Positions 7,834 to 64,000 of a DNA stretch of 64,000 nt are shown here, piece after piece; the first letter of the stretch is position 1, and each line of letters opens with the position of its first letter. Below the pieces are notes generated by a model, which did no database searches, was not told the DNA's origin, and saw only the letters and a list, made by a program, of their open reading frames with translations. Origin of the DNA: Bryum argenteum (lineage: Eukaryota > Streptophyta > Bryopsida > Bryales > Bryaceae); the NCBI GenBank assembly GCA_037043015.1, contig CM073321.1:4221001-4285000 (forward strand). Reading direction: 5' to 3'. The translations under genes and the position numbers were made by a program.

Positions 7834-7939
7834 GATTACCTGAATGCCAGCAATAAACACATAATCATGAAAAATCACTCGTAAATTAATATACCTACAA
7901 TCAGATATGTGTAGGACCATTGAGGGAATTAAATGACCA

Positions 7940-16350: not shown

Positions 16351-16578
16351 AATAGCACGACTCGAGCTAAAAGGCCATGGACAAAATACAAAATGAAGAG
16401 ATTTAAGCATGAGACCGTTTAGCTTGAGTCGAGCTAAACAAGCATGAGACCGTTTAGCTCGAGTCGAGCTAAACAAGCAGGAGACTGTTTAGCTCGAGTC
16501 GAGCTAAACATGCATGAGAGTGTTTAGCTCGAGTCGAGCTAAACGAGCATGAGACCGTTTAGCTCGACTCGAGCTAAA
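16351..16578. repeat. Palindrome array, exact 35-bp period (core 1), in a P1 intron
   Basis: Five copies of the 21-bp core start at 16,418, 16,453, 16,488, 16,523 and 16,558, exactly 35 bp apart, with gcatgagaccg-type spacers. A degenerate half copy is at 16,351. The array lies in the intron between the two halves of the methyltransferase-like segment. The matching intron of P2 holds two scattered cores (29,167 and 29,267). Confidence 0.92.
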
Positions 16579-18781: not shown

Positions 18782-21700
18782 TTTTTCGTTTTTGCCTTAT
18801 TTCGGTCCGGTTAGTGGTTAGTAATAGTTAAATAGAGGAAATAAAAGCCCCTATAACGGCCTATCCGGATAATGACCGGGTAGGGTTAGCTTAACCAAAA
18901 ACCTGCCTAACCGGGAGCATCCTTAAGCTTAGTGGGCAGGATAGGATAGCGGAACTTTTTAAATTTCTCTTTCTTTTTAGTCTTTGTCTTTTAGGCCAGG
19001 GCCCAGCCTCGCCGTGCCAGTCCGGCCGCTGCATACCCGGGCAGGGCTCAACTGACCCTTCGCGGGTTGACTTCAACCCGGGGAGGGGTGTCCCGATCAG
19101 GCATGTATCGACCGGGCATGGCCTGACCGGGCATGGTCGGGCCGGGTATGGCCCCGCCGGTTATGGCCCGGCCGGTGAAGGCCTGGCCGGTTATCGATGG
19201 CCGGGGATGCCTACCGGGTGGAAGGACAGGCCGGGCGGAGGAACCACCGGCGGCGGCGCCGACAGTCCCGGGCTGACAAACCCGTGATTAATACGGCGCC
19301 GCCAAAAGGGACCGCCACCTCCCTACTTCCTTTTGTCTTTAGCAGCGTGGGAGGGGCCGTTACCCTCCTTTTTGGTTTTCCCCCCCCCCCTCTTCCTCGT
19401 TTTGCGTGCGCCATTGCCGACTGTGTCGCTCCCCCAATTCTCGCACGAACCTGTCCACGCGGCCGTCCTGCACACCGTAGCCCCGAGAAGAAGAGTACGG
19501 AAACATGGCCGGAGAGAGAGCTTCGCAAATCCGGAGTAAAATTATCCAGGTTGGCATCCCAATGGCGGACGATGCCCGGGCGCAGTTGGTGCAGGACTTC
19601 ACTCGGATGGCGTGTGCGGGATTGTATTGGGTGCCCTGGAATGTGGAGGACGCAGGGATCATCGAGGAGGCCGTGTCCGGACAAGATCCACCAACCTTCG
19701 TCGACAACCCTGTCCGGGCCAAGCCGCATTTTTGGCATGAGGCATGCTGGAGGGCGACGTACGGCTTTCCGGACTCCTCCATCGGATACATACAGGTGCG
19801 GAACGACCCCTCCCTCGGTGGGATGTTCCACAATCCAGCACACGAGCACGATGGATACCGGGTGGAGGATTGCGCGAATGCTCGAGAGCGGCGGTTGCTC
19901 AGGTACCTGGCCCCGATCCTCAACCCGGAGAAGCCCCAGTTTGTCTCGAATAGGCTCCTGAAGGCGATCATGGATTCTTACCTGGGCCGGAAGCGAGTAG
20001 GATGGGGCCACATCCTCGAGGAGGTAATCGTCGTGGCTTCAAAGAAGACCACCAGTGCGAAGGGCTGTCCTCTGGCTCCCTATGTGTACCACTTGTACGC
20101 GCACTACGAGTGTCTCAACCCGGGAGAGGTCACTTTCCTCCGGATGCTAATGGAGGGCAGGAGAGACATGTTTCCCGGAGAACAGATCCCCGAGGCAGGA
20201 GTCCCCGCTGTAGCCAGACTCCTCCCCAGGATACCGGCCCCCGGAGTAGGGGCACTCCCTCCACCTCCACCACCATCCCCACCAGGGCCGCAGGGACCAC
20301 GGAGGACAGGACCAGCTGCCCCCGGAGCCGAAGACGGAGGAACACCAAGACCGGGTATAAGAGGAGCTGCCATACCTATGGCGGAGAGAGTCATCCCACC
20401 CCGGCCGGCTACCACTCACATGATGGCAACCCGGAGTGTAGCCACACCCGGGCCCAGCCAGCCAACCCCGGCCTTAACCGGAATGGGGGAAGATTCTCCG
20501 GTAGCCAGGGCAACCCCTCTAGCCCCCGCGATTGCCTCGCCACCCCCCTTACAGCCTGTACAGGGGAATGACAGTGATGGGGAGGAGCTTCCGGTCTTGC
20601 GTCGGAGGAAGTCAGGGCGAGTTCTCCGGTTTGTGGAGGCCGACTCCTCTTTGCCAGGAGAACCGGGGGTAGGGACTGCGCTACCACCAGGAGAAGCTGA
20701 GGCCGAAGGAGCCTCACGACTAGCTGACCCCATCCCAGAGGTACGGACCCCGACGAGAGAAGGGCTGGTTGAGGAGGTCCCCATTGAGGCCCTTCTCCTG
20801 GCCGACAGCCCTGTCGAGGTCCCCGGACAGACCACAGTTGCGGGAGGAGTAGAGTGGGGGGAGCCAAAATACACCACGAAGAGGAAGGCACACCTCCCCG
20901 CAGACAGCCCTTGACCCCGGGTCCGGAGGAAGCTTACTAGGCCCAGGGAGGATGCTACATCAACCCCTGCAGGTTCTCCTGTCGGCCGGGCCGAAGCCCG
21001 TGAGCCAGTTGCCAGGGCAATCCCGGTCGCGCAGTGAACTACATCGTCAGGGGACAGGTCCACCAGGAGGAAGGGGAAGAAGGCGATGGAGGAAGACTCG
21101 GAGTCAGAGGACGAGGGTGAAACTGGCAACCCCTCCCCCCTCCACGCTACCTGGGAACAGGGGTTGGCGGCCCCATCCACCGCAGCCCGGTTGTCCGGGT
21201 GGAATGATTTCACCCAACAGAGGCCCGGAACATGATCCGAGGCTCCTCGTGCCTCCATTCCGGATTACGGAGGATGACCCCGTGCAATCCATCGCCTATG
21301 CCTTGCAGTTGTGCACGCAGGAGCACCTCCAAATGCACAAGGCACTGTGGGGGATAGCAGTCGCACTCAGGACCAACCAGATCGAGCGGTACCCGGACAT
21401 GGTTCGGGAGTTAGTGCGGGGAGGCCCAGCTCAAATCTCAGCTATTCGACGCCCAGTTCCAGGCATCCGGGTCGGACCTCCCAACTCGAATGGCGGCTTA
21501 TATGAAGAAGGCCATAGAGCGGATGGAAGGAGCCTTATAGGAGATGAGGGGCCTCATTCGTGAGATGACCAGGGCTTTTCCGGGAGAGGCACCCCCACCG
21601 GAGGTAGTCGAGACCCCTCCTACCCGGGTCGTACCCGAGACCGCTGAGGCTGCCATGGTAGAGGAAGAGGAGTCCGCCGATCCCGTAGCGATGGAGGAGT

Positions 21701-25690: not shown

Positions 25691-26287
25691 TTTAGCTCGA
25701 CCCGAGCTAATTGAGCGTTGTCACAACGCATGAGCAGTCATGCAAGAGATGATTTCATAACCTTTAAAAAGGCTCAAGTCGATTTAGGTCGAGTTGAGCT
25801 AAATAGGCTCGCAATTTATGGAAAAGTGCGGTTCTCCTCATCGAATTTCGGGTTCTTAGACGGCTCATTTAGCTGGACTCAAGCTAATTGAACGCTCTCT
25901 CAATGCATGAGCAGTCATGCAAGGCATCTAGATATGAATTTCTTTAGGACAGCTCAAACCGATATAGCAAGAGTCGAGAACAAAAATGAATAAGTCCTGC
26001 ATCTTCTTGCCATCTTTTGTTTTAGCTCGAGTCGAGCTAAATGGTCTTATGTGCATTTGATTTGCCCACGTTAATCTTACATGTCAATCTCCGTAAATGA
26101 ATTACAGTCATGGCGAGGTCTAGAACCACTGCTCGAATCGTTCAAACAGATACCAATGCACTAGTCGAACTTCCCGAAGTGGAAGTCAATATGGACTCAG
26201 AGGAGCAAGAGTCTATTCCAGAGGTAAGACTGCAACTCATAGACATATTCTTATTTGATGTGTCAATTTCGCTCGAGTCGAGCTAAT
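25691..26287. repeat. Core-1 palindromes upstream of P2
   Basis: Five copies, variously degenerate, start at 25,691, 25,783, 25,868, 26,021 and 26,267. The first four precede the P2 start codon; the last lies in its first intron. Steps of 92 and 85 bp suggest the remains of an array like that at 7.9-9.1 kb. Placement between P and the expected T side matches the T2-P3 layout. Confidence 0.8.
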
Positions 26288-37700: not shown

Positions 37701-39352
37701 GCTCAGAGGCTAGAGCTGGTGACGCTACTCCGAGTGGATCAACTGAACCCGGTGTGACTGCAGCTCCAGAAGTCTCTCCTTCCTTTGTAGGCGTCGATAT
37801 AGGAGTCCGCATCCTCGCCAACCAGGGTGTGAACTTTCTTTTGTTCTTCCTTCCAGCACTTGTTCCCGTTTGGGCGGGGGTCTCCCATCTGGTTTCTCCT
37901 TCTTCATCCTCGTCCAAGTCCTCTCCTTCCGAATTGTCCTCTTCTTCATTGTCATCCTCAGATTTAATCCCCTCCGGCCTCGGCTACGGCTTTGGTTGCG
38001 CGTTGCTGTGCACGCGTCCTTCTCTAGATAAAAGAAGTTACCTCTTCCTCTTCTTCTTCTTCTTCCTCTTCCTCTGATCCCTCCTCCTCATCTCCGTAAG
38101 GCGTGAAGATGGATGGAATCGCTTGCGTCGACCGGGTCGCTGGCCTTCGTTCGGTCTGCTTCTGTGGGGTAGACCCCGTGGTGCTTTGCTAGGTCTAGCT
38201 CCATCCGGATTGGCCTTCTTCTTCTTCTGCGGAATCCGGTTCACATACTTGGGGGATCCCTCCAAGTCAATGATTGCCCTATCCGGATCCTTCTCGTCGG
38301 ACTCCAAAGATAGGTCGACATAGGGAGGAGCGACCTCCAAGGGCTGTAGCCTCTCCCATCCTGCTGCTTCCGGTTGAGTGAGAATGCCATACCAAGCGTA
38401 CAGGTGGTAGAGGTAGGGCGTCTACGGACAACCCTTCTTTTTGCCAATCTTAGCCACCTTCTTCTGCACCACTTTGTTTATGATGTGGTGCCATCCGACC
38501 ACCCTCTTCCCGTCGTAGCTCCACAAGATGGACTTCATTAGCTTGATTGTGCAGAAAGTCGGCTTATCCAGACCGAGAATAGGCAGCAGAAACCGGAGCA
38601 GTCGCAGCTCCCGCGCACACTTGCATTGATCGAGCTTCAATCCATCCTTGTTGTCGGGCGGCCGGTTGAATCGACTCTTCAACCCCTCATTGCCCTTCTT
38701 CGTGATGTAGCCCACCACCAAGTCGGGATACCGATAGGTCGCCTGCCATTGCTTCGACATCCAGCTCTCCGGTTTGCCACGCAGCTTGTGATCTCGGTGC
38801 TCCTCCAACCACTCTTTGCTGATTACTTCCTCGACGATCTTCTTGTCGACAAGATCCAAGGGGACCTTGAAGAATCCCTCGCAGCCCATTCGGACAAGGT
38901 CCTCCTGCAGCTGCTCCTCATCCTTCCGATTCCGCGGGGAATCCGGTTTCACTGTCTTAATCAGGATTGGTTTCTCCAACCTCCACGGCGAGTCAGCTCG
39001 CTTCCTTGGCATTGTGCGGTAGTACTTGCGCTTCTTCCAAACTTCCTGCTCTCCCCAAGAACTTCCCTCTCTCTCCAAACTCTCTTACGCACAAACCCTA
39101 CTCTCCGGAACACTAACAGGGCGCTCGGAATTAAAAATGGGAGGTGAAATTTGGGCGCGCGGGAGTGAAAGAGCACTGGGAGCGTACAAAGCACTTGCGG
39201 AGTGGAAGTAATTGATGGCCGCAGAACTTAAAAGCAGCAATCCGGACGTTTCAGTACACCGGCTACTACTACGGATGTAGGGGCCTATCCGGACCGTACT
39301 ACTGACAGTCCTCGGGAAACCGGATTACCTGATTTTCGGTAACCCTAACAAT
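34704..39352 (-). mobile_element. Polymerase-less LTR-type element inserted in M
   Basis: A 4.65-kb insertion is flanked by a direct repeat CCACTAA (34,697-34,703 and 39,353-39,359). Joining the outer flanks would restore a continuous M reading. One long minus-strand coding region runs 39,078-36,005 and a non-coding 1.3-kb tail follows, beginning near 35,932 with TGTTAGCGAG, an LTR-like start. No reverse transcriptase or integrase is present. Clear paired LTRs are not seen, so classification as a large non-autonomous LTR-type element rests on plan and homology to the element at 18.8-23.6 kb. It is broken. Confidence 0.5.
36005..39078 (-). CDS. Coding region of polymerase-less element, broken
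   Basis: The N-terminal domain (residues about 35-215) includes GCEGFFKVPLDLVDKKIVEEV, SKQWQATYRYPDLVVGYI and LRLLRFLLPILGLDKPTF, and is homologous to the protein at 19,505. It is followed by a Lys/Arg-rich stretch, acidic low-complexity runs and Pro/Val/Glu-rich tails. A polypyrimidine tract near 38,040-38,090 encodes a KKKKKKR run. No catalytic motif is seen. It has a few breaks. Confidence 0.5.
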
Positions 39353-40449: not shown

Positions 40450-42430
40450 TAGAGAGACTTTAGATCCTCTTTTGGGATTTCGAATGACCTTCTAAAAACT
40501 CACCACCACTCCCTAAGTAACCTTCAACAAACTCCTTAAAATTGCAAACTTCTTCTATCAAATGAGGAATCACAGGGTGTGTCTCACAATCCATGAAAGA
40601 TTTCGTAAGTCTAGGAATAGTTGGAAAGTTATTTGCCTTCAACTTCAAGCTCCATCCCCAAACATGGCATCTATGTCTTTATGTGTGTGCCCTACTTTGA
40701 GAAAGTTGTTGTACACTTAACGATAAATGCCTTTGTATACAAGCGGTGGACAAAAGGCAAAAATGTATCTATTTCTATTGTTACCAGAAGCATAATCAAG
40801 CTGCAAAATCAATATAGGAGGCAAGGGATTACCTGGAATCACCACCTCTGGTAGAGGTAGGAGGGACTCCAAACAAATCTTCGAACCCTTCAAAACAGCC
40901 TTGGTAAATGCATCTGCGTATTTTCTTCCGAAAATAGCTTGCATGACAAATTCTTCGAGGCCTCCTCACGATTGCGTAGCAACTTCGCAATGGATCCAAT
41001 GGTATGGTTGGAATTTGTTGCGAATGTATCAAGGCCATAGTGGGCATATTTAACATCTCCATGACCATGAGCAATCATTTCCGTTACTGCAACTGCCATC
41101 CCCGTGTAAGAGTCTGTAGCTTTAGTCTTGTGAGAAGAGTGGGGTGACACAGTCTTAGAATGATTCATTTTGTCATGATTGATACTTAGCATCTTATCAG
41201 GGAAGCCTTCAGAGACCGTCCAATTGAAATAGTATATTTCTCTATGGACCCTTGCACAATTCAGGTAAGCTTCCAAAGCCTCACTCCACTTTGATTGTGC
41301 ACACAAGAGGGGAGTACAAGCACTGCGTAATTGCCTGTACTTATCACTCAAACCACAACGAGAGAAACTTTCTCCTCTAGCCTTCGCAGCATATTCGAGA
41401 AAAGAAGCTCGTCGAATATTGCTCAAGCTTGCTGAAGAAATTGGCGGCAAATCACATGCTCCATTAATCTCATTGATGTGAGTCATCTAGTCACTCCAAC
41501 AAAACGCAGAAGGCAGAACCATTGATGGAACTTTTTCACCAGAAACGAGCGGTTTGGTTTTGTGTGGCATTTGGTCAACATCAGAAACTATAAGTGATCG
41601 AAGAGTCGCAGTAGCTTGGACTCTGTGTAGTCTGGGTTTTTTCAACCTACATTTCCGTGCACCTCAGCTTGTTTTCTTCCTCGGGCCGCATCTTTGTACA
41701 TGTAGAAGGTAGCTCTCGAAATCCCATGAATAGTCCACCACGCCATGGGACAAACTTCCCTTCCTTTTAAGGTAGTCCACTCGTTTCCAACGGAATTCTT
41801 GTGGACTTGTTTTTGCACCTCAAGAAGGCACTTCTTTCGAGAGTACACACTATCATTGATATGAAGTTCTGAGCGAATATCATGATTCCGTCTGCGCGGA
41901 AAATGGTTGCAGGAAATTGTTTCCTCAACATGTTAGAGTGGAAGCTAAGGTGATTGCTTGAGGGGCAATGAGAGCCTCTTTCTTTCCGGTTACAACAGCC
42001 TCAACTCTCTCACGTATGGTCTCATAGGAATGTACACCTTTCCGACGACGCTTATTGAGAGCCTTGACGGCCATGTTGTACACATGAGTAGGGTAATGGT
42101 CAAAGAGACTAACACCATCTAGTATGACTAGTTTTATATCCCATGATTGAACTGACCACATCCAACCGACTCGTACAAGGGCTGCGCAATTTGGAAAAAC
42201 ACTCTGTCCACCCCTAAAGGATCGACAGGAGGAGCGTAAGGATCCACTCTGTCATCAACGGTAGTCGGATCCGTGTTCTAGCACAGTGCTTTGGCGACGT
42301 CTATGCCGTCTTTGCTGCGAATAGTAATTGCCTTCTAATACCACTTTGAAAACGAGGCAGCCCTTCGCAAACAGCAATCTCTAGAGGTAACACAGGAATA
42401 GGTCCGGCAAAATCCATAGGCTGATGCGTG
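40450..42430 (-). pseudogene. T2: transposase-like (DUF7869-type) gene, decayed
   Basis: It is collinear with T3: DIKLVILDGVSLFDHYPTHV (T3 IQQVLLDGVTLFDHSQQDV), VCPMAWWTIHGISRATFYMY (T3 VCPIAWMKIMGVSKSTFYR), DLPPISSASLSNIRR, MNHSKTVSPHSSHKTK (first candidate acidic site changed from MDHSKT), AHGHGDVKYAHYGLDTF, QLDYASGNNRNRYIF, then the end at FLEGHSKSQKRI. The reading is spread over several frames and stops before the C-terminal third that T3 has. It is divergent from P3 across a 1.9-kb gap filled with core-2 palindromes, the clearest example of the T-array-P plan. The amino acid divergence from T1/T3 parallels the change in palindrome. Confidence 0.65.
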
Positions 42431-42601: not shown

Positions 42602-44551
42602 ATATCGTCGAGGGGGCGATAACAATGAAATGTAAAAACAATGCAAGCTTCCTTAATGGATCCTAGACAAATCATATTGTATCCAACAGTTTAATATACG
42701 AATACCAAAAATAATACTGAGTGCATGAATCCATCAGTGTATCCTTAAAATAGAAGTGGGCGAGAGTACGGACGTTTAGTATCGCAAATCTCATACTTGA
42801 AACATTGAAATATATCGTCCACTCAACAATAACAGCCAACTTCAAACTGAAGACAAAGACATAGTCCAAGAGACTAAGTACCACAGTGCGATGTAACAAA
42901 TATTATTCTCATACTACCTCATGTCGAAACGATGGCACCATTCAGTGACTAAATAGTGTCAAATAATCAATAGCTATAGCCGATAACTTAATCAATCAAA
43001 GTTATGGTCGACCCAACGATAACACGCCATGGTAGTAAATATTTCAATTTTACATGCACCTACTGGTTAGCACAAGGGATATCGAATAGTACATTCTATA
43101 CAATTGCATAACAAAGTGTTATAGAATGGAAGCTAACCTTTGGTAGAAGTTAGAAGCAATCGAAGTTAAGAACAATCCAGCCCAGGAATGGATAGAAGAG
43201 GAAGAGAGGAAGGGAGGAAGAGAGGAAGAGAGGAAGAGAGGACTCATCAAAGCGGGTTGCAAATTCCACCTTGCTACTGTGATGATTTGAAGATTTTTGT
43301 TTACCTTGTTCAAAGCATGCCTAGCATTTTCAAGTAAGTGACCTTGCAGGTTGTGATAGTGTATGTGAATCGTTGTTTTGATGCGTTGGTTGCTGAAGGT
43401 AGAGAACTGGAAGCAACAGTAGCATGCAATTGCTGCTATTTGCTATAATATATGACTGTAATAGATTTCAGGCCTAGCTGCAATTGGATAAACAACACTC
43501 CTAGCTAAAGAAGGGTTTAGTGAATTGTACGGTCAGCAACGCAGTTATCGTCGACCCGACAATAACTATCAACATTTTTTAAAGTAAAAGTAAACAGAGT
43601 TATCGTCGAACCGACGATAACTTTACACATTTTATTAAACAAAAGTATTAACATGATTCGTGTAATTATAACCATGTATTTTGTAATATGTATGTTTTTT
43701 GTCGACACGAAGATATCGGTTATATTTTGTGCTGTCACACGAAAATGTTAGATAACTAGAGCTAATTTGAACATCGTATTTCTTATCGTCTGGTCGACGA
43801 TAAGGAACATTTTGTAGGTTTAACGGATCGAATCGCAAGGTATGTTATGATTAATATTAGAATGCCTACAGCATGTTGATATTGTCGACACGACGATAAG
43901 ACATAATTGTTTCCCGCCCTGGATTGCGCTAATCAGTACTTATCGTCGAGGCGACGATATGGTTTGGTTGTAGGTTCTATATCGTGTAAACTTATCATTA
44001 AGATTCACAATATATCGATACGTAATCTCAGAAATAGGTAATCATAAAGAAGTTAAAACCAATTTTGAAGAATTATGACCAACAATGTGGTACTTATCGT
44101 TGGGTCGATGATATGACCAAGAATGTTGTTATATGTAAGTGAGTGTATATTCTTATTGTTGACACGACGATATCAATTGTAGTCTGTGCTGTCTCACGAA
44201 AATGTGAGAAAGCTTCATAAGAGCTAAATAGAACATCGTAGTATTTATCGTCGGGTCGAAGATAAGAAACTTTCCGTAGGACTAGCATCAAATCCGAAGG
44301 TATGACATGATATATCTTGGATTGCTTACAGCAATGATGAGGTCAAAAAGCACCACTTGAATTGTTCGAAAACATGGAAGTTGATCACTTGTCGGGTGAG
44401 ACATCAGATCACACAGAGGTACGAGTTCTTTAGAATACGTTTTTGGAATCCACTTGCATCGTTCTAACCAATTAGAAGGTTTTGACGAAGGTCCTTGATT
44501 TCCTGTGTCTCCAAATAGTTGTAACCTCTTATCGTCGGGGCGACGATAAGA
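42602..44551. repeat. Palindrome field, core 2, between T2 and P3
   Basis: About 13 copies of a 23-bp dyad (arms TTATCGTCG / CGACGATAA around three or so variable bases, usually bounded by C/G) lie near 42,602, 42,811, 43,002, 43,544, 43,599, 43,696, 43,782, 43,879, 43,939, 44,093, 44,152, 44,243 and 44,529. Several keep both arms intact (43,599; 43,782; 44,529). Spacing is irregular (55-190 bp). Core 1 is absent. Further copies lie in P3 introns or flanks at 55,829, 57,245 and 57,326. Confidence 0.85.
43190..43240. repeat. GGAAGA-type microsatellite
   Basis: Repeated gaggaagagaggaag phrases form a purine tract within the T2-P3 gap. Confidence 0.8.
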
Positions 44552-46082
44552 TTTAAACTTCTGGACTCTAAAGAACACGGGAATCTTTTTATGTGCTTAA
44601 CTTTATGGTAATTTAGTGCCAGAGATGGACATAGGATCTTGTCGGGTTGACTATTCATTCTGAAGTAGAGTCATGCTGTACAATGTCATTCTGTTCCTTA
44701 AGTCAGTTTCTAAGGTTGCTTCTTTTGTTCTGTTTAGACGGCGACGATGACGTTCGAAGATACATACAACTACGATGTCACTCATCCTCACCTCGTACCG
44801 TTCAAGAATCCCTTCGAGCCGGAAGCCTTCAGCGACATGCAAGTCATATATGGCAAGCTCTTCCGATTCCAAGAGAACATAATACAGTGGTCATTTGGAG
44901 TGAAGAAGTACAAAAATTTCGTCTTCCTGCGCATTCAGGTCGGTGTCTCAACGGTTTTTAGTATCTAGAATCCAAATGAGAAAGTCTCAATCATCGAGAA
45001 TGTCCGGGATCACTTCATAGTGATCGTACTTAGAGCGGTAAATGACAACGGGAAGGAGCTCGACCACCAACACTCAATTGTCTTAGATTGTAGAAAGAAA
45101 CATGCGAGGTTCAATCTAGAGAACCTCATGTCCTTCATCCAGGGGACAAAATGAGAACCCCTCAACGAGTAATTCACAAAATTGAATTATATTCCATGGG
45201 TGCACAATAATAGAAATAGTATTTCCAATAGATTAAATAGAATCTTTGCCTCTCTCTACCGGTACGCCACTGAATCCTCCACTAAAACGCCGAATATTGA
45301 CGGCAAATCAAAGAAGAAAAGCGCATCTCCCACAAAGTTGAAGACAAATCTTACCTCCACGGATGCTGGATCTGGGAGCTGTGCTACGAAGCCCAGTCAG
45401 CCAAGACCGGCAGCTAAGAAGAGAGATGCCCTCCTCAAGCAGCTGCAAGGTCAAGTCGAAAGCGGAGGAAGACCTTAGGTGCTTCTCGTTTAGTTGTTGC
45501 TGATGATCCTACTGCTGGAAGCGGTATTTCAGCTATAGCAACTGTAACAGCCGACCGCACATCGACGAAAGACGAAGTGCCCAATTTTAGAAGAATGCGA
45601 CATTGCAGAAAAAGTTCTGATATAATAACACAAAATGCTTCTTCTTCGATTTGAAGTTTGTAGATGTGACCATCCATCAATGCATCCTTGCGAGTGATCA
45701 GTACATCATTGAACCGTTCAAAAGGACATAATGGAAAGTGTTAAGGTTAGTCTTGTCGGTATGATTGACGACCGGCAGAGACAGAAGGTTTGCTTGACGC
45801 CTATTGATAAGGATAATCAACTTCTTTGAAGGAAGCCTTCGAAGTGGGAAGATATCAAGGACGGAAATTTCATGATCATAAACGGCCAGGATAGCATCTT
45901 CGCATCGAAGGCACTTCAGACTTGAGGTTGCAGAGCAGATCGCCATCAGAGGCTACGCACATGGAGTGCATTCATTGTGTGATCCCTTGATCCATCTCAG
46001 CTGAGGGCTATTTCCAAACTCTATAACATCACAAACCATCTGGACCATGCCAAGCCAACATGGGGTAACCAGATTGTGAAAA

Positions 46083-46868
46083 CGTTAGCTGGGTATGTAT
46101 GGAAGTGCTTTACAAGACTACCTAAGTCGACCATTGTTCGTATTTTAGAGGCAACGTAGAGTACTTTGGCAGAGTAGAGGGAGAACGGGGAGTTCAGTCG
46201 GTGTCAAGAAACACTTCGAGGGTCAGACTGGACCAACCCGCGACAACGTTAACTGCTCTGTTGACTAACGATGAACGTTGACGGAAACTCAACGTTGGCT
46301 GCATTTGTCCACGAGTTACTACGAGAAGGGAACTCATGGCGCCAGCTTTGTAGTCTAAGGTTGACATTGAGCGAGAGGCTATTCTAACACTTAGTCGGCG
46401 AAGGAATACTCGAGGGAGGGAGGTGCAGAGAGAACAGACGAGAGAGCTAGTGTGGCCGGCGTTGTCTGACGTTGCCTAACACTTAGGCAACAAAGAGGGT
46501 GAAGAACGTCCTTCCCAACAGCGCTCACAGTCTGCGAAGGAGTCGCAGGCAGCAAGGTCTTTCGGCAAGAAGAGGCAACATTCAAGAAGTGTAGAAACAG
46601 AGGGTTAGGAATTTGAACAATAGTTAGCTTAAGGGAACTCAGATGTAGAGAGAAGACTAGCCATGGCCTTGTATTGATGATGGAAATGAGTACACATGTT
46701 TTCACTCCTAATCTCTTGTCTCAATGCCTATCCAAAAACCGGTCCCTACTCTGCGTCGACTATGCTCTTAAGTAGCTGATGTCCTCCGAAGTCCATGCTG
46801 TCGATCGGTAGCCCTATCCTCCTGACTTGGCCGTGATCTCCCTGTTGGCAACGTTGGCTACGGTAACA
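46083..46868 (-). repeat. 3' LTR
   Basis: 786 bp, matching 54,921-55,706 almost base for base over its length, with TG...CA-type ends on the inner side (ends GGTAACA). Confidence 0.92.
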
Positions 46869-49498: not shown

Positions 49499-51041
49499 TG
49501 TGAGCCAAAAAACCACCATGGAGTGGCCTTTGGTCACAAGGAGATTGCCAAGAACAACACATGAAGAGAGAAACAAGGGAGGGGAGAAGACGAGAAGAAA
49601 TGAAGAAGAAACAAGGGGAAGTGAAGAAGAAAACCCCCGCCGGCCTCCTTTTAACCCTCTTCCGGTTTTTGGCGCGCCATCGCTTCATCATAGCTCTGAT
49701 TTGGGCGTGCCATAGCTATTTGGAAAGTTAAGTCAATTTCGCACTCACCCCCAAAATCTCAGAAGCATAAGATCAAAACCCGAGGACTGATGGCCAAAAT
49801 ACTGGGGCCTACTTCTTTTAAACGCCGGCGGGAAAACCCTTCAACACCCCCAACTTTGGAGGGGTGTTTTTCCCTCTCTAAAGATCGGATCGGGGCATAC
49901 CATATACCCCTAGAAAGCTCTTTTAGAGTTCTATCTACTTTAGAAATCTCAATAGCATAGGGAAAAAACTCCGTGACTGATTGTTGTTTGAACACAGCTG
50001 ATTTGTTCACTGCCGGGGGGGAACCGTTTTCGACACCCCGACTTTGGGAGCAAATTTCTCCCTCTCTACAACTCGGATTTGAGCATGCTTACTACCGTTA
50101 GAAATATCTACTTACAAGCTACCTAGTACAAAAATCTCAATCAATTTGAAGAAGAATTGAGCGAGTGATGAAGGAAAGACCGAGAGACATTTGATGGGAT
50201 TGAGAGAATTGAGTGAAAGGGGCCCACGGCCTCCTTCTACTAACAACTAAGCAATTCAAGAAGAAATCAAAAGAAACAAAATTGAGAGGGAGGTCCACCT
50301 GCCTCCTTACTCCTACTCTAACTAAACATTACAAAGAAGAAGATGTAGACAAACAAGATATGAGACAAACAAGATGGAGGAGAAGGAGGCCCATGGCCTT
50401 CCTTCTCCTACTCTAACCAGATTGAGTGGGTGATGATAGCTTGGAAACAAGCTATTAAGTACAAAATGAGAGCCGCCAAAGAGGCGGCTCACCCTAAAGC
50501 CTAACTAAGACCTAAGCCCTAATTAAAGCCTCCATGGATGAATAACCGCCACTCCACGCGCTCCGTCCTTGAAGCCTCCATTCCTTCAACCACTTCATCA
50601 ATGAATGTAGCCTCACATGCTACCACAAGGTTAGATGGATGAGACTTACAACAATCAAATTTCAAACACAACATGGGCATCAAAGACTAGTTGTACAAAG
50701 CCCATGGTAAAACGCTCAATTCTAATTTAAGAAACTAACCCTATTTCAAATTAGGATTCACTAGGGGAATTTTTCCTCCTCTAGTTCTTCTCCATCATCA
50801 ATTGGATCCACTAGGGGGAATTTTTCCTCCTTTAGTCCTTCCACACTGTAAAGCTTAAATTAGTTTTAAACGTCCCATCAAAGGCCTTGCAACAACTAAC
50901 CGCTAATATACAAATAGTATTCAAAACTAAATCATTGTATATTCATCAATTTACCTCAAGATGTCATGGTTTGCAAACACTTCATTAATAAAAGTCATTA
51001 TTAACAACATTTAAACAAGAGAGCGCTCTCACGCTCTCACA
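49499..51041. mobile_element. Solo LTR (copy B) nested in the Ty3/gypsy element
   Basis: A 1543-bp unit, TGTGAGCC...GCTCTCACA, is flanked by a perfect 5-bp duplication GATGG (49,494-49,498 and 51,042-51,046). It inserted after the host retroelement and is therefore very young. It is the same family as copy A in T1. No coding capacity. Confidence 0.9.
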
Positions 51042-54900: not shown

Positions 54901-54917
54901 CCCCAGCATGGTCGCCA
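54901..54917 (-). promoter_or_regulatory. Primer binding site
   Basis: Three bases inside the 5' LTR on the minus strand, TGGCGACCATGCTGGGG has the form of a tRNA 3'-end complement and resembles sites of plant gypsy elements. Confidence 0.7.
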
Positions 54918-54920
54918 AAA

Positions 54921-55706
54921 TGTTAGCCGGGTATGTATGGAAGTGCTTTACAAGACTACCTAAGTCGACCATTGTTCGTATTTTAGAGGCAACGTAGAGT
55001 ACTTTGGCAGAGTAGAGGGAGAACGGGGAGTTCAGTCGGTGTCAAGAAACACTTCGAGGGTCAGACTGGACCAACCCGCGACAACGTTAACTGCTCTGTT
55101 GACTAACGATGAACGTTGACGGAAACTCAACGTTGGCTGCATTTGTCCACGAGTTACTACGAGAAGGGAACTCATGGCGCCAGCTTTGTAGTCTAAGGTT
55201 GACATTGAGCGAGAGGCTATTCTAACACTTAGTCGGCGAAGGAATACTCGAGGGAGGGAGGTGCAGAGAGAACAGACGAGAGAGCTAGTGTGGCCGGCGT
55301 TGTCTGACGTTGCCTAACACTTAGGCAACAAAGAGGGTGAAGAACGTCCTTCCCAACAGCGCTCACAGTCTGCGAAGGAGTCGCAGGCAGCAAGGTCTTT
55401 CGGCAAGAAGAGGCAACATTCAAGAAGTGTAGAAACAGAGGGTTAGGAATTTGAACAATAGTTAGCTTAAGGGAACTCAGATGTAGAGAGAAGACTAGCC
55501 ATGGCCTTGTATTGATGATGGAAATGAGTACACATGTTTTCACTCCTAATCTCTTGTCTCAATGCCTATCCAAAAACCGGTCCCTACTCTGCGTCGACTA
55601 TGCTCTTAAGTAGCTGATGTCCTCCGAAGTCCATGCTGTCGATCGGTAGCCCTATCCTCCTGACTTGGCCGTGATCTCCCTGTTGGCAACGTTGGCTACG
55701 GTAACG
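54921..55706 (-). repeat. 5' LTR
   Basis: 786 bp, starting TGTTAGCC on the plus strand; the partner of 46,083-46,868. The 104-codon open stretch within it is shared by both LTRs and is probably not a gene. Confidence 0.92.
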
Positions 55707-57351
55707 TAGTCGTAGAAACATTTGGACCTCGCTCGATCGTCTTGCCGAGTACAGCCTTGAAGACAAAGAGAGGGGTAACGACGTTGTCTTCAACGAGGCG
55801 AATTAAACGGTTAGTTTGCATTCCTGCTTGTTATCGTCGGGTTGACAATAAGGTTCTTCTATTACTTCATCGATTCTTGTAATCTAGCTTGTGTTACTTA
55901 CTTGAACTTTCTGGTAAAATTCATAATTTCATGGACGTTGTCGTGGATAAACATCAACCACGACGGTGAAAGAGCTAAGATTCAATCCTTGAAAGTTTGA
56001 GCTCCAAATAATCACTTTGGCGGATAATATCTGGAAGCACTGGGCGGACTTCCTTACCTTGCACCACGACGGGGAAATTATTGACCCAACCACGATGGAG
56101 CCCTACAAGCTCGCCAAGGGGTAGAAGACGCACGTTCTGAACACGAGTTCTTCAAACGATTTGGTTGGTTTACGGACAAGGACTTTCAAACCGTGGTTCA
56201 GCATGTGCTTATGTTGACCCCCGATCGAAATGCATCGTATTCCAAGATCTCAGTGCACCGAACAAAATTTCCCGTTCCCGACAACATGTCGAGCGCCGAT
56301 TGGATTGAGCGGCATAAGCGCAAGAAGGTGGTCAAGCAGGAAAACTTGGATCTCAAGCCTGCGTTTAAATTTGTGGACAACGGCAGTGATGTAATAAAGG
56401 CAACGTGGTTGGCCTTGAAAGCTAGGCACAAGCTCACGTCGGCTACATGGGATCATCTTATTGCACATATACCTGCGGATTTCTTTACCAAAAGACTCCG
56501 CAATGAGGCAAGACATAAGCGAGCAAAAGATATGGCCGACAATCATTCCGAGGTAAAATTTCTGATGAAAAGGTTTATGGCCTTGAAATACCGATTACCC
56601 TGGAGTGCGGGAGGAGTATAGATGAGAGGAATAGATTGGGCCAACAGGGCGCTTGTTCAGAGTTCTACGTATGCTTACACTACTCGGCCGGTAAACCTCG
56701 TTGTATTGGATGTTCGGAACATTCCACGTTGCCCCGTGATCGACACACGAAGCGCCGTCGATCCATTCTTGAACTTCATGCAAGAGGAGTTTGAGCCCGC
56801 AATCGATACTCCTAAGATTTGGCTCTTCATTATTCTCAACAAGGACGACATACGGGTCGCCTCAGCATTTGCTGCTCGGAAGCTCTCCGGATACAAGTAG
56901 AAGGTCTCTACATACGCCCCTGCTAAAGCAGAAATGCTGGATAATGTGTCAAACGAGGCAGTTTCTCCAGAAGTGACACTGCTCTTCTTATTTAAGAAGG
57001 GCGACGAGCTTCCGGGTTTAGCGAAGAATTTGATAAAAGATACATATTCCAACCCCGCAACTTGTTTGTACTGTAACGACATTGCCAAAAATACAGAGGC
57101 GAAGTGGAGGCATTACGCAAGTGAACTCCGCATGGAGTTTTACCTTGATAGACTTCACGCGTGTGCCTCACCCAATGAGAACGTCGTCGGGGTTTACGCC
57201 GGTGCAAAGATTATTTTAGCGGCGAAGGTAACGACACATCCTTCGTTATAGTCGGGTCGACAATAACCTTTAGTTTGTACGGAGCTCTCGGATTGTATAA
57301 ATAGTGATGTTCTCATTAGCTAGCCCTTATCGTCGGGTCAACGATAATCTT

Positions 57352-57834: not shown

Positions 57835-60730
57835 CTACTCTTGAGAAGATGAAGCAAGCTCCCGTAAAGAAGCCTTGATGATTTCGACCTGCTTCTTGGG
57901 TATTGTAATAATTGCGTCTATACCTTCACTGCTTTCCTCGTCAGAATGCATAATTCTTGATTTCCAAGCATTGAAAATAGCATCTGTAGGTTGCGAACAT
58001 ACATCTACACCTTTCTCAACAGTCCAACGAAGCTTTCTATTTGTATCCCAATCTGTGTAATACTTCAGAATTTCTTTGGAGCGTGACATTGGACGGAAGA
58101 ACTGGATGTCGACCGTATTGGGTAGGTCTGGGTTTGAATTTGGATCAGACATTGCTCGCCCGAGCCAAAAAGGTCGGCCATCGGTGCCGCATGGACGTAG
58201 TGCAACAAAATAACCCTTATAAAGGTCACGTCCAACTCGAAATGAGGGAGCAGGACGATCACGTCTCTGGCCAACAAAATGATCATCGTCGTCGTACTCT
58301 TCGCGCACATTCCCTTCTAAAGTAAACTCATCTTCCATAGCATGTACTAGTCGAGTTGATGGCCAAAAACCATGTTGTAACGGTAATGGTTCCTCCAAAC
58401 TTGACAGGAACCCATTTTGTGACGATGGAAGTACGTCCATAGGTATACAAAGAGCATCTTTAACGCCGCTCCAGTAATGTGAGAGAGGCTCGTACAATCT
58501 CCGTGATTCAATTGACTCACGTGATAATCGTTCCCAATGATCAACAAAGCCTGAAATCCCTTTCACCACCTCAGGCAAAGGCGCATCTCGTTTGGACGCA
58601 TTGCATCCGGTTCACCACGTGGCCATAATGATCTGCCTTGAGAATCCTCCTTCCACAATTTAATACCAGCATGATCACCTCTAGGAAGCCATTCCTCGTC
58701 GTGACAGAAATTCTTGTACTTCATTACGGGGCATCCACTTGAATCCATGTAAAACTTGAATTAATGCGCTTTCGTATGCCCTACCAATGCTTCATCGCCA
58801 CCTAACATCCACTCTTCAATGAATTTCTTGAAGTCCGGAACCTCTTGAACGAGGTGTGGAATAACAAGAAGTTTCTCTATCCTCATAAAAGATTTCATGA
58901 GAAGAGGGATGGTAGGATAATCCTCCTTTCGCAACGCCATGCTCCAACGCCCAAATAACGCATCTATGTCATCATGAGTGTGACCGACGAGCATAAAATT
59001 TACATATATCTCTCGGAATACTCGCTTCGCTACCAAAAGAGACCAGAAACTGAAGATGAATCTATTCCTGTTATCACTCACAGCAATATCCATTTGGACA
59101 TTCAAAATTGGAGGCGAGACTTTCTTTGGAACTAGGATGTCGAGAATCGGGCCTAATGGATCCATACACACCTCTCGACCTCGTAAAGAGCGTTAAGATA
59201 CGATGGATGCGATGGGGGCTCTGTAAAGAGTTGTCTAGATGAGGATTTAGCTTCGAGATCCCGCAGAAGTTTTGCAAATGAGCCAACCGTATAATTGGCA
59301 TCATGTGAGTAAACATCTAGTCCGTAATGAGCGTATCGCTGGTCTACATGACCATGAGCAAGAATTCCCGTAACTGCAAGAGGTAACTTCATGAGTCCGT
59401 CTAAGTTCTTCACCTTATGAGACAAGGCGGGTGATGTTGTTTTTGAGTGGTCCATCTTGTCATGCATAATGGTCAAAACATCTTGAGGCGACTCCTTAGA
59501 CCTAAAGCGATTGAGGTAGTACAAGTCTCTGTGCGCATATGCGGAATTTAAGTGCACATTCAACTTCCTTGACCATATAAGCGATGATTGTGTCCCGGGA
59601 AGAGTGAGCTTCATCAGTGATTGTAACTCATCACACTTGGAACAACGCGCGAAATTGTCCCCCGATCTTTTGGCATAGTATTCTGGATAGCTGAGGCGGC
59701 GAATCTTACTAAGGTTTGAAGTTGACACCGGCGGGAGCCCACACTCTTCAAGGTGATTATCAAGAAGAGGAATTTGGTCCTTCCACTTAAAACTTAAAGG
59801 AAGTACCTTGGCAACGACCTTCTCCCCTGATGGAAGGCTCCGGGACTTGTGAGGCATGTGATCGGCATGTCTATCAAGTATCGCCCCTAAGACGGCAGAA
59901 GCAACAATCGTATGCCTCCTAGGCTTTCGCAAGCCCGTGTTCTCGTGTAACTGGGCCTCATAACCATCAGCTGCATTCTTGGCGTTGCGATAAAATGTAC
60001 TCTTGCTCACGCCCATGATTTTCATCCATGCAATTGGACAAACATTGATACCCTCTAGAGTGAGTACATTTCGCCTTTCAGCATTTCTGTGGAACTACCT
60101 ATGGACATCGAGTTTGACGTGATTCTTGAACTGCACAGTTGTCTTATCGTACATGCGACACCTGAGAACCTTAATCTTCTCCTTTGGGTATAGTTCAACA
60201 CAGTTGTGCCTACAGCACGTATTATATGCGACCGCATTGATTGACTCCGCTGTCATCAGAAACTGTGCTTTGCGCGAAACTGGAGTAGACTCATTCCTTG
60301 AAGAATTATCATACGATCGAGTTCGAGATGACCCGTGCCGCCGACTACGTTCCCGGACCCATCTGTTGTAAACATCTTGCTGACTATGGTCAAAAAGAGT
60401 AACACCGTCTAGGAGGACTTGTTGGATGGGCCAGGACTTGAAGGAGTATATCCAGTCGTCTAGATCCTCGACATCAACAAACAAAGTTGAAACTTGCACC
60501 TCAACTCGGGAATGACCGAGTAAACCATTACAATCAGGTACAACCCCAGATCGAAGGTTTCGGAGTAAACCCTCAGCGATTTTGAGTCCATCGGGATCAA
60601 GCATTGACACAGTTCTCCCTGTCCAGAGCCGTGGAGGAACAACTTGAGTAGCAAGTAAACCAGGATTCATAGGTGCGTCGCAGAAAGTGTCATCGTTTGA
60701 GGAGAAATCCATCCTAAAATATGTCTTCAC
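57835..60730 (-). pseudogene. T3: transposase-like (DUF7869-type) gene, nearly complete
   Basis: This is the best copy, with about 965 codons and no obvious intron. Order: N-terminal domain (VLLDGVTLFDHSQQDVYNRW), helical DNA-binding-like segment (VCPIAWMKIMGVSKSTFYR), CxxC (ARCSKC), RNase H-like candidates (HDKMDHSKTTSP; QMDIAVSDNRNRFIFSFW; GHTHDDIDALFGRWS), a cysteine/tryptophan-bearing region (MDSSGCPVMKYKNFCHDEEW) and a C-terminal domain (YFVALRPCGTDGRPFWLGRA ... KYYTDWDTNRKLRWTVEKGV). Three defects are seen: a TAG after KLDVHR (about 60,095), a TAA after GHTKAH (about 58,760) and a one-base frame change near 58,580. Core-1 palindromes lie directly upstream. A DDE/D-type recombinase is inferred from motif spacing. 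P is missing on its right side. Confidence 0.7.
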
Positions 60731-60800
60731 TAGATTAGAAAATAATTAGACAAAAACATGGTCACAACTCCAAGACTGTTTGAGAGATTATCAAAAGCAG

Positions 60801-61141
60801 TTTAGCTCGACTCGAACTAAACTTACTAATAGAATACATTCTACAGTTTAGCTCGAGTCGAGCTAAACTGCGTAATATATTTGATCAATCAGCTTAGATC
60901 GACCCGAGCAAAACTGTCTAACCTTCACCCCTTGCAGTTAAGTCTGACTCGAGCAGAAGTAGGAATACTGCTTCTCGATATAGATTAACTCAACACCAGC
61001 TAGAAAGGTTCACCTGATGACTGCTACAGGTTAGCTCGACCCGAGCTAAACTGTCCGACAAGATGCAGACAGCAGTTTAGCTCCAGTCGAGCTAAACTGC
61101 AGATAGAAACGAATATTGCAGTTTAGCTCGAGTCGAGCTAA
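60801..61141. repeat. Palindrome array, 45-46-bp period (core 1), upstream of T3
   Basis: Cores start at 60,801, 60,847, 60,892, 60,937, about 60,984 (very degenerate), 61,030, 61,076 and 61,121. The flanks extend the dyad by CAG/CTG in the best copies. It is immediately upstream of the T3 start, so it could also act as an operator. Confidence 0.9.
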
Positions 61142-61773
61142 ACTGCATGGCAAAGTACCAAACTAGTCCCGGAATATCCGGCGGGTTTCACGGGATTCTA
61201 ATAGAATTTCGAATACCGTTACAACCAGCGCTCTCTCATTCTATCGTCACACGCAGGAATCAAAATATACTCTTGTACCAACGTAATCGTCAAATCAAAA
61301 TAATATGTCAACAGCGACTCCGAATGCACCATGCTGACGTACAAGTCATTAGAATACAACCATTGAATTGAATTCGTTAAGTACTACTACTGAAGATAAG
61401 AAGCAAACTATGAAGAATATGAATCTAACAATGCGAGAAGCTGTGCAAAGCAAGTTGAACGACAAACATTCATGCATAAGTGCAATCGACAAACACGTAT
61501 GCGAAGGTAGAGGGCGAGTTGAAGGAAGCGCGGAGAACTCAGAAACGTCAAGGGAGTTCGGCAAACTGAGAGATTGAAAAAATAATCATTCCGTCATGGA
61601 TTTTGAAGGTCATTGCGTAGCGCAATGCCGCCGTTTTAACCCGCAAGGAAAATGGAGGGAATTGACTTTTAGAAAATTGAAAATTGGCGGAATCAAGTCT
61701 CGACAAATGAAGTGTCAACAGTTAATAATAGGCGGGAAGAAAGGGCCCGCCATTTGGAAATTGGCGGGATTGG
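61142..61773. other. No recognisable feature
   Basis: Mixed-composition DNA with only short open stretches. The expected P gene on this side of the array is absent, so the element is truncated here. Confidence 0.4.
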
Positions 61774-61808
61774 GGTTATAGGGTTTAGGGTTCAGGGTTT
61801 AGGGTTTC
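61774..61808 (+). repeat. Interstitial telomere-like repeat (TTTAGGG type)
   Basis: About four units of the plant-type heptamer, some altered (ggttatagggtttagggttc, then agggtttagggttt). It lies at the junction between ordinary DNA and the AT-rich block. Confidence 0.7.
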
Positions 61809-63094
61809 TATTATAGGTGTGTGATGATTGTAATTGGTCAAAAAAATGTTAATTTTTATACACCAACTGTGAGGAATACTATGTTAGCAAACACTCAATG
61901 ACACAATAAAATTTTAGTATAATCACTTGTAGGCAATACATGGATACAACTTTCAATTTCATATTCTTGTGAATCGAGTATTCTTAACCTCAAAGTTTTC
62001 TTTCTAAATAAAGTTCCTATACAATAAATTCGATGCAATTTTTATCTTAAGGTGAAGTCTGACATATTTAATTAAATATGGTCAGTCCACGATCTACAAT
62101 TAAGTACAATAGTTGCAAAATGATTTCCATAATCTAGATTCCATGAAGATACTCTTCAAATATGTAGATTTTAAGGTCATGGATGGAGGAATCTCCACAT
62201 GTTTTAAAGTCCATAATAAGCCCAAACTCCATATTTAATTAAATGATGCATAAGTCTTATTAAGTATTAGGTTATTAATATCTTATCTATAAGTTTATTA
62301 CTATTAACGTTTTTGTGTATATGCAATTGCTAACAATTCTTAATTGAATGTTGATTATTATAACTTCAAATTAAATTATACACTTCAAATTAATTCTATC
62401 ATATGCAATATTTCGTTAAAAATTGTATGAGTAAACATATTTTTTATTAAATTCTGTTTACTTCTTCGTATATACGAAATATATTTGATAATTGTATACA
62501 ATCTAATATAGTAAATGATATTTATCACATATTATATTCCATACTATTTATCTATAAATAAAAAATATATCTTTCAAATTGTTAATTCATACAATGTAAA
62601 TATAATCTTAGTATATTATGTAGAGTATCAAATTGATTCAGTTATAGATTGTACTGATGAAATCAACTATCTTAACTTTAAATTTTAAATGAAATCTTCA
62701 AGGTTATCAACGATGAAAAATTTATACTATTTCATAAGTAAGTTTGTAAATCTTGTTAAATACACTTTGGAATATTTAATAAAAGAAGTTTTAATATACA
62801 TAAAATTTTATGTTTAAACTTAATTTCATTGTATAGATGCTCAATGGTATATATGTCATTTAAATTTTTTTAACATAAAGCTTACCAAAATAAGATTACA
62901 TTTGAACGTTTTAATTTCATTTGTAGATGCTTAACCTTACAATTGGATGTTGTATTGAAATGTTCAAAATCAGTTGCAAATATGGACATCTTTTCGTTTA
63001 AAATATGCATTTATCAAATACAATCTATACATCCATTGATCTTTAAAGTTAATATTCTATTCTGCAGATTTCAGTAACTATTTTTAATTAAATC
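61809..63094. other. AT-rich non-coding block
   Basis: No gene. Strongly AT-rich compared with the rest of the window. Because it runs into the mitochondrial rRNA fragment, it may be partly of organellar origin, but I see no organellar protein in it. Confidence 0.4.
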
Positions 63095-63446
63095 GCTGCT
63101 GATTGTCCAAGAAATGGAGATTTCAGCATATAGCCTGATTAGCCTGAGATGTTTCCATCCAAGCGCACCTTCCTTAAAGGCATTCGCCCTAGATAAACTA
63201 ACCAACATGCAGTGTTCCGCCTCTGTTTCGGCACTTAGACATCCTTAGACGAAAGAGTGATATTCCAAGATTGGAGGTGACGTTACACGTCACCAACTCT
63301 CACCTATCTTTCACATTCAATGAAGGTTGTCATTGCAAAGCTATAGTAAAGGTGCACGGGGTCTTACCGTTTAGCCGTTAATACTTCGCATCTTCACGGA
63401 GAGTTCAATTTCACTGCCTCCATGTTGGAGAAAGCAGGGCAGCCAT
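63095..63446 (-). rRNA. Mitochondrial-type LSU rRNA fragment (domain V), nuclear copy
   Basis: The minus strand carries invariant domain-V signatures: GGCAGTGAAATTGAACTC, GTGAAGATGC, AAGACCCCGTGCACC and TTTACTATAGCTT, followed by a GATAGGTGAGAG helix and the GTTAGTTTATCTAGGGCG and AAGGAAGGTGCGC regions, in the order found in bacterial 23S rRNA near positions 2020-2300. The variable parts are short and AT-rich, as in mitochondria. Only about 350 nt are present, so it is a transferred fragment rather than a working gene, unless the whole block is organellar. It has GGTAAGACC where bacteria and land-plant mitochondria have GGAAAGACC. Confidence 0.85.
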
Positions 63447-63697
63447 TTTATTCTTATCGTTAGTATTACTTATTTTGTGACGTTCTATTAGATTTATACT
63501 TTCATTCTTGAGGATTAAATAACTAAATAAACATCTGAGTATTTTAGAAAGTCTATGTGTGAGAAATTGAACCTATTTTATACTTATGTCTTAAATTATT
63601 TGACCTTGTGAAATCATAAGAATAAGATTTATAAAAACCAATTAAAGAAATGAAATTTTTTAGTTCAGTACCTTCTTAAGCTGAAAGGTAAGCTTAA

Positions 63698-63863
63698 AAC
63701 ACGTAATTCGTTATAATGAGAATATGCAGATTATCAAATTGATGAAAATTGAGCTTGAGTTGAGCCAAATGTCTAGTGTGGGTACATTTACCTCAACCCA
63801 AGCTAAACCCACATTAATTATCTCAAAATCAGTGAAGAATACCATTATAAAAAATTACGTGTT
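63698..63863. mobile_element. 166-bp MITE of the T/P family
   Basis: The termini are AACACGTAATTCGTTATAAT (63,698) and its near-inverse ending ACGTGTT (63,863). The flanking 4-bp target duplication is TTAA (63,694-63,697 and 63,864-63,867). Inside are only two degenerate core-1 palindromes (63,749 and 63,787). It is a deletion derivative with no coding capacity. Confidence 0.85.
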
Positions 63864-64000
63864 TTAACCGAATCGAGTTTAATTCATCATAATTATATTG
63901 CTTTCGTTGTAATTATTATAATGAGTCATAAACATATGCAACTCCTTACGCCCTGTTATGATGTATTTCACACAATATAGTATAATTTATATTTATTTTT

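Follow-up and report, generated by a model that had tools for sequence, protein, structure and literature searches.

The genes described here carry palindromes in their own non-coding DNA that are specific for the clade of a protein, P, and whose types, over two genomes, agree with the tree of P. We think it probable that these genes are what is left of large eukaryotic DNA transposons encoding P and a second protein, T, and that a protein of the element, likeliest P, reads palindromes that are private to its family and have diverged along with it. One of the genomes is represented by the window, by which we mean the whole 64-kb stretch of DNA that was analysed. It is transposon-rich, with 46% GC, few long reading frames, intron-containing genes and the remains of LTR-type retroelements, and Rfam (at gathering score) and tRNA scans of it gave no hits.

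T and P genes and their palindromes in the window

There are three T genes in the window (T1, T2 and T3), all on the minus strand and all matching DUF7869 (Table 1). The profile match has E=3e-36 in T1 and E=1.7e-42 in T4, a relative from the second genome, and a 198-aa piece of T2 matches PF25273 at E=0.0035, which is below the curated cut-off. The closest relative of T3 is the uninterrupted T4, with 54-69% over the T3 pieces and 71-76% over the aligned pieces used for the tree. A sequence of 1.5 kb has been inserted twice, once in T1 (5299-6829) and once in an LTR retrotransposon (49499-51041), and the translations of the two copies are identical over about the second half.

The P genes were delimited by similarity, and their exon ends were placed by eye and by similarity rather than from transcripts. 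P3 is decayed and split by the LTR retrotransposon. Its 5' part is matched by P6 in two segments (44744-45424, 29%, E=5e-22; 45555-46075, 35-51%, E=2e-34) and by P1 at 45752-46066. The naming of the insert as LTR/Ty3-type was made by eye from the translations; its long terminal repeats are near-identical, and it must therefore be young relative to the decayed P3. T2 and P3 are divergent genes on either side of an array of palindromes, while T1 and P1 are both on the minus strand, and some T-P pairs may for that reason not belong to a single element.

In one stretch of P, F-x-I-x-G-Q-H-x-V, the residues F, I, GQH and V do not vary among P1, P2, P4, P5 and P6, and the decayed P3 has GQD in place of GQH. 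In the form F-x-I-[DN]-G-Q-H-x-V we take this stretch to resemble ParB. Scans of the same five proteins (P1, P2, P4, P5 and P6) against PHROGs gave a weak match of P1 to phrog_1033, a ParB-like partition protein (E=0.028), and no ParB match for the other four; Pfam and NCBIfam gave no ParB match for any of them. A second stretch follows, by eye, the order of the beta-class methyltransferases. The motif of N4/N6-methyltransferases is [DNS]PP[YFW]; it is absent from P1, P2, P4 and P5, which have D[FVL]R-x-x-P at the aligned position and then a glycine-rich segment, and no significant match for this stretch came from profile searches. Two AlphaFold models of P were of low confidence (mean pLDDT 31 and 38), and Foldseek with the second of them found nothing at E<=0.001. 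Since the profile matches are weak and no AlphaFold model is usable, ParB-like and methyltransferase-like are readings here and not established domains. After the methyltransferase-like stretch sits a NIF phosphatase domain, found in P4 (E=2.4e-14; L010 1368-2219) and, below the curated cut-off, in P1 (E=0.0018; window 12968-13471). The usual first motif of a NIF (FCP1-like) phosphatase is DLD, and because P4 has DLNG and P1 has ELDG, a phosphatase activity of P is doubtful. P1 also contains, at 14225-14705, twenty tandem repeats of 24 bp that are 99% matching and encode PPQPPIVA repeats; no tandem array of this type was listed in P2.

Some further features of the window may be mentioned. At 61773-61807 there is a short interstitial array of GGGTTTA, 89% matching, which is the plant-type telomere unit. 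The stretch 62000-64000 has 28% GC and, by eye, a fragment of an organelle-like large-subunit rRNA near 63.3 kb, for which Rfam gave no match at gathering score. The genes at 19538-20128 and 38368-38958 form a related pair, about 39% identical, and could be plain retroelement remains.

Table 1. Positions of the T and P genes, the palindromes and the inserted retrotransposon
Feature	Position	Strand	Remarks
T1, DUF7869 gene	4050-7637	-	similarity and profile; insert at 5299-6829
T1 upstream array, 16 core-1 palindromes	7940-9143		about 79 bp spacing
P1	11674-18796	-	core-1 sites at 17707 (intron 1), 16351-16558 (intron 2), 15632 and 12034 (taken as intronic)
P2 upstream group, five core-1 palindromes	25691-26287
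P2	26641-33081	+	core-1 sites at 27685 and 27729 (intron 1), 29167 and 29267 (intron 2), 30012 and 32540 (taken as intronic)
T2, degenerate DUF7869 (transposase-like) gene	40469-42224	-	frameshifted; tblastn to T1, T3 and T4
Array of 13 core-2 palindromes	42602-44549		between T2 and P3; starts at 42602, 42812, 43002, 43545, 43600, 43696, 43783, 43879, 43940, 44094, 44153, 44245, 44529
P3, 5' part	44744-46075	+	N-terminal and ParB-like stretch; in-frame stops (decayed)
LTR retrotransposon inside P3	46066-55703		LTR-like repeats 46066-46865 and 54904-55703; coding remnants 52.3-54.8 kb
Core-2 palindrome	55831-55851		P3 intron-1 position
P3, 3' part, methyltransferase-like region	55999-57248	+	exon pieces 55999-56118, 56145-56588, 56628-57248
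Two core-2 palindromes (57246, 57327)	57246-57347		where other P genes have intron 2
T3, DUF7869 gene	57856-60784	-	similarity and profile; frameshifts
T3 upstream array, core-1 palindromes	60801-61142		mostly 46-bp spacing
P4	contig C243
P5	contig C269
P6	contig C74 (4.2 kb)		gene truncated by contig end

The palindromes were found with a dyad scan in a 9+3+9 layout that allows at most 5 mismatches in the 18 arm positions, or 4 under a stricter limit. Two types occur in the window, core 1 (TTTAGCTCG-NNN-CGAGCTAAA) and core 2 (TTATCGTCG-NNN-CGACGATAA). At up to 5 mismatches the whole window holds 47 core-1 and 17 core-2 sites, against 0-3 and 1-5, respectively, in eight dinucleotide shuffles of it, and at up to 4 mismatches the shuffles give 0-1 for each core. 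The exact half-site TTATCGTCG is present in 11 copies where 0.29 are expected.

A sequence-only reading of this DNA had claimed about 16 core-2 copies between and within T2 and P3, and no core 1 there. The count is borne out, as 16 core-2 sites have at most 4 mismatches, 13 of them between T2 and P3 and the other 3 at P3 intron positions, and the T2-P3 territory has no core-1 site at up to 5 mismatches. The placing within P3 needs a correction: three sites do lie in P3, beyond the retrotransposon that splits it, but at intron positions and outside the coding sequence. The 17th core-2 site, at 57211 and with 5 mismatches, is at the chance level. It had also been claimed that T1, T3, P1 and P2 have core 1 only, and the scan agrees, with no core-2 site at up to 5 mismatches in these four territories and with 17 (T1), 9 (P1), 11 (P2) and 6 (T3) core-1 sites at up to 4. 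Three weak core-1-like sites (570, 63749 and 63787; 3-4 mismatches) lie outside every T or P territory.

The spacing of the core-1 arrays varies, from about 79 bp in T1 to 46 bp in T3 and 35 bp in intron 2 of P1, and the T1 upstream array is a tandem repeat with a period of 159, which is about two spacings. Upstream of P1 the dyad scan found no palindrome. Within the arrays it is the 21-mer alone that is conserved; the majority share in the arms, compared with that in the 25+25 flanking bases, is 96 vs 66% in the T1 array, 91 vs 59% in the T3 array and 89 vs 47% in the core-2 region. Among the decayed sites in the window, 24 of 54 changes in core 1 fall on CpG positions, which make up 4 of the 18 arm positions, and 21 of 30 in core 2, where CpG makes up 8 of 18. 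Such a CpG-biased decay is in line with methylated, silenced copies.

The possibility that the sites are insertions of small palindromic elements was considered and is not favoured, since they are units of tandem arrays with different spacing. At 7933-9143 the array units that surround the core-1 palindromes are found facing either way, with long inverted repeats between units, and the segments between the palindromes of the T1 array look as if they had been flipped. Positions 3-6 of the half-site (TAGC at 7940-9143, ATCG at 42602-44549) are exact base-by-base complements of each other, perhaps by chance.

Palindrome type and protein clade in two genomes

The second genome was reached by a pattern-based scan of prokaryote species genomes with the T alignment, which gave 72 candidate stretches, one of them encoding a relative. 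This relative, T4, comes from a contig of 4.3 kb in a MAG whose record assigns it to an uncultured Synechococcales cyanobacterium. The assembly comprises 4.8 Mb, and its T and P genes are on the contigs C71, C243, C269 and C74 (L012, L010, L011 and L018). Neither the T4 query in 386 genomes of the same phylum nor the P4 exon-2 query in 29 genomes of the same order gave any match beyond the MAG itself, and the introns of P4, P5 and P6 have, by eye, the form GTAAGT...CAG. On these two grounds the contigs are probably a eukaryote contamination of the reference genome. Five scans of viral contigs found neither a relative nor a palindrome site, plasmids gave no match to P4 exon 2, and the ParB-like stretch of P4 returned five weak records from phages, with E of at least 2.

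T4 is an uninterrupted open reading frame, 947 aa long when counted from the first ATG, and core-1 sites lie both upstream and downstream of it. The ParB-like part is uninterrupted in P5 and P6. P4 and P5 have the palindrome TTCAGCTCG-NNN-CGAGCTGAA, which we call c3, and P6 has TTATCCTCG-NNN-CGAGGATAA. Core 1 at up to 3 mismatches has 16 matches in the MAG, all of them on C71, C243 and C269, against one for the reversed control. Core 2 has four matches, as does its control, and all four core-2 matches are on the P6 contig.

All four types fit one generic form, TT-N4-TCG-NNN-CGA-N4-AA, including the 3-bp spacing. In the whole MAG this form, with 18 matches, is no rarer than its control, with 17, although 14 of the 18 are on the four contigs with T and P genes. 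The inner four bases of the half-site found so far are TAGC, CAGC, ATCG and ATCC, and positions 2-9 are strongly conserved within each type. One base separates the half-sites of P3 and P6, and one base also separates the core-1 half-site from that of c3.

The proteins divide in the same way. Over the ParB-like stretch P4 and P5 are 88% identical, P1 and P2 76% and P3 and P6 46%, with all other pairs at 23-33%. An IQ-TREE analysis of the ParB-like and exon-2 alignments of the six P genes gives the clades (P1,P2), (P4,P5) and (P3,P6), each with a support of 100, and their half-sites are TTTAGCTCG, TTCAGCTCG and TTATC[G/C]TCG, respectively. The distance between sites is correlated with that between P proteins (Mantel r=0.68); of 720 relabelings, 8 attain this value, and the true labelling is one of the 8. 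At up to 4 mismatches none of the 87 sites in nine gene territories is of a foreign type, and one P4 site ties between core 1 and c3. Because core 1 (with T4) and TTATC[G/C]TCG (with P3 and P6) are present in both genomes, the type must follow the element family and not the host.

As for the T genes, core 1 goes with T1, T3 and T4, and core 2 with T2. The unrooted tree of four leaves, which is a weak test, sets (T3,T4) against T1 and T2 and so does not separate T2 from T1. The support from T is weaker than that from P. For the ten genes at hand, of which the window copies are decayed, the site type agrees with T no less than with P. The suggestion that site and proteins switch together is upheld by the six P genes in their three clades, and the four T genes agree with it; among these ten genes no palindrome type was found that fails to follow the phylogeny.

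Sites lie upstream of T1, T2, T3, T4, P2, P3, P5 and P6 and in 5' introns. Where intron 1 is placed, every one of the six P genes has a site, and the site is always of the type of that gene. Intron 2 has sites in P1, P2, P4 and P5, and the corresponding position of P3 has two; the P6 sequence ends short of intron 2. Once the sites are masked, not one of the 15 pairs of intron 1 aligns at E<=0.001, the best being P1-P3 with 18 bp and E=0.007. In P4, P5 and T4 the sites are upstream, downstream or in apparent introns; several of these are within open frames that extend into an intron. Site 778 of P4 is inside an open frame taken for an intron.

Readings of the palindromes

We suggest that an element-encoded protein, most likely P acting as a dimer through its ParB-like part, binds the palindromes. 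Such binding could mark or de-repress copies of its own family, as VANC does for the Arabidopsis VANDAL elements, and P and the palindrome would then diverge together, so that each family became a private system. The T2/P3 switch would be one such divergence of protein and site. Both P and T are candidates for the binding, P being the likelier. An outcome in transcription or silencing is suggested by the sites upstream of genes and in 5' introns, where VANC motifs are also found. On a more specific version our judgement is evenly balanced: a modular code, in which a ParB-like family reads TT-N4-TCG-NNN-CGA-N4-AA and the clade sets the inner four bases. The palindromes would then be a private address in promoters and introns, by which the accessory protein finds only its own kin and keeps them active, a VANC-like arrangement that would have been invented independently, from ParB-type machinery.

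The main rival is that T, or a TNPA-like cofactor, binds the palindromes for synapsis or excision, like the subterminal repeats of CACTA elements, and that P is incidental. The site types of the four T genes and the sites on both sides of the T4 reading frame would fit this, and CACTA subfamilies do diverge in their subterminal repeats together with the presumed binding protein (PMC2613891). We nevertheless find it unlikely, as sites also lie deep inside the element, in introns 1 and 2 of P, the unrooted T tree does not separate T2 from T1, and in three regions the 25 longest pairs of each included no convincing terminal inverted repeat. A host transcription factor, with the palindromes as captured promoter or intronic enhancer elements, would account for sites upstream of eight of the genes and in 5' introns. 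One factor would however leave at least two site types per genome unexplained, types that follow the transposon clade in both genomes, and following the P clade is the opposite of following the host species; this reading is quite improbable. Even more so is a neutral origin, by which an ancestral tandem repeat was inherited and amplified with no protein partner. The copies do stand in tandem arrays, and related elements could share their sites by descent, but the 21-mer alone is conserved while the array units differ, the masked introns fail to align between clades and yet all six P genes have the site at intron 1, and the TT-N4-TCG frame with its 3-bp spacing has been kept in all four types.

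The bases next to the arms raise another question. The first flank position outside the arms is self-complementary at 38 of 52 sites, with 16 expected from shuffled partners, and the pairs AT, GC, TA and CG are all used. Over flank positions 1-5, 68 of 130 cells (26 sites) are paired in introns against 46.4, and 84 of 165 (33 sites) between genes against 48.5; no shuffle of 5000 reached the excess in either place. The sites counted here come from arrays, and some of them are not independent of one another. Flanks that are self-complementary with varying letters are not what simple recognition of fixed bases would lead one to expect, and the candidates are a symmetric birth of the sites, inversion at the sites and an extended symmetric contact. 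A hairpin or cruciform, of RNA or DNA, in which pairing matters and the identity of the bases does not, is favoured by this flank pairing in introns and between genes. The outermost arm pair points the same way; in the putative contaminant contigs (L010, L011, L018 and L001) it departs from T-A at 9 of 24 sites, and 5 of these 9 are another complementary pair. Against it, changes in the arms of the window sites are one-sided in 74 pairs and two-sided in 5, of which 1 is still paired, each type strongly conserves positions 2-9 of its half-site, and G.T mismatches are not clearly preferred over A.C on the sense strand (33 vs 25 in introns, 34 vs 38 between genes). With one-sided changes dominating and no clear wobble preference on the sense strand, an RNA hairpin is not our main reading, and pairing as such is a rather improbable explanation of the palindromes.

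Comparison with known systems

Recognition by P, which remains our preferred reading, has a close likeness in a Sola1 transposon of Ectocarpus. It carries a ParB-methyltransferase accessory protein, which its authors suggest could bind and modify its own transposon (PMC12477816), and the accessible main text of that paper mentions neither a palindromic cognate site nor a subterminal motif. Like the elements proposed here, it is a large DNA transposon with a second gene on the strand opposite to the transposase (here in T2/P3, not in T1/P1), and in both a single large protein combines a ParB-like with a methyltransferase-like stretch. Unlike the Sola1 protein, P has no classical methyltransferase catalytic motif and has a NIF phosphatase domain. 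The likeness is through the accessory protein; the transposase-like T here matches DUF7869.

The VANDAL elements are Mutator-like elements, unlike those described here, which carry a DUF7869 protein. Their VANC proteins are anti-silencers that cause a loss of DNA methylation at their targets. The VANC motifs stand in tandem repeats, both within introns of VANC21 and VANB21 and in the region upstream of VANA21, and VANC6 has another motif than VANC21 (PMC5735166). In both cases a motif private to the element is dense in non-coding DNA, in its own introns and upstream, in fast-changing tandem repeats, and related proteins have different motifs. The VANC motifs, YAGTATTAY and AGTTGTCC/AC, are short, and their arrays keep to a single orientation (PMC5735166, PMC10398659), whereas the sites here are 21-bp palindromes, and Pfam found no VANC-type family in P. 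The CACTA (En/Spm) elements with their TNPA also have an element-encoded DNA-binding protein, here a candidate, and repeated motifs that diverge between subfamilies; the CACTA motifs are subterminal, and those here are in introns and between divergent genes (PMC2613891). No TNPA-type family of Pfam was matched by P.

An analogy can also be drawn with bacterial ParB and Noc, whose palindromic parS and NBS sites switch in few bases with the protein subfamily, through few residues (PMC7383237), just as the bases of the palindromes change with the subfamily here. The parS and NBS sites are of 16 bp and have no spacer (PMC7383237), unlike the 21-bp palindromes with a 3-bp spacer described here, and P has no significant match to a ParB-family profile. 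VirB, which acts at virS, is a ParB-related antisilencer and a CTP-dependent clamp (PMC10770331), and a ParB relative acting as an antisilencer is what we would propose, by analogy, for P.

The protein class is thus already known, and so are sequence-specific motifs private to a transposon (VANC, TNPA). A literature search that covered few subscription papers found no family of palindromic sites whose types go with those of a ParB-like accessory protein. For the algal ParB-methyltransferase accessory proteins, binding to the own element has been suggested, with no site named in the accessible text (PMC12477816), and there is now a candidate cognate site in four versions. As these versions follow the P clades in two genomes, the suggestion becomes directly testable. 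If the reading is true, sequence-specific recognition private to a transposon would have arisen a second time, independently of VANC, and the palindromes would offer a natural series in which the joint change of protein and palindrome could be followed, as has been done for ParB and Noc.
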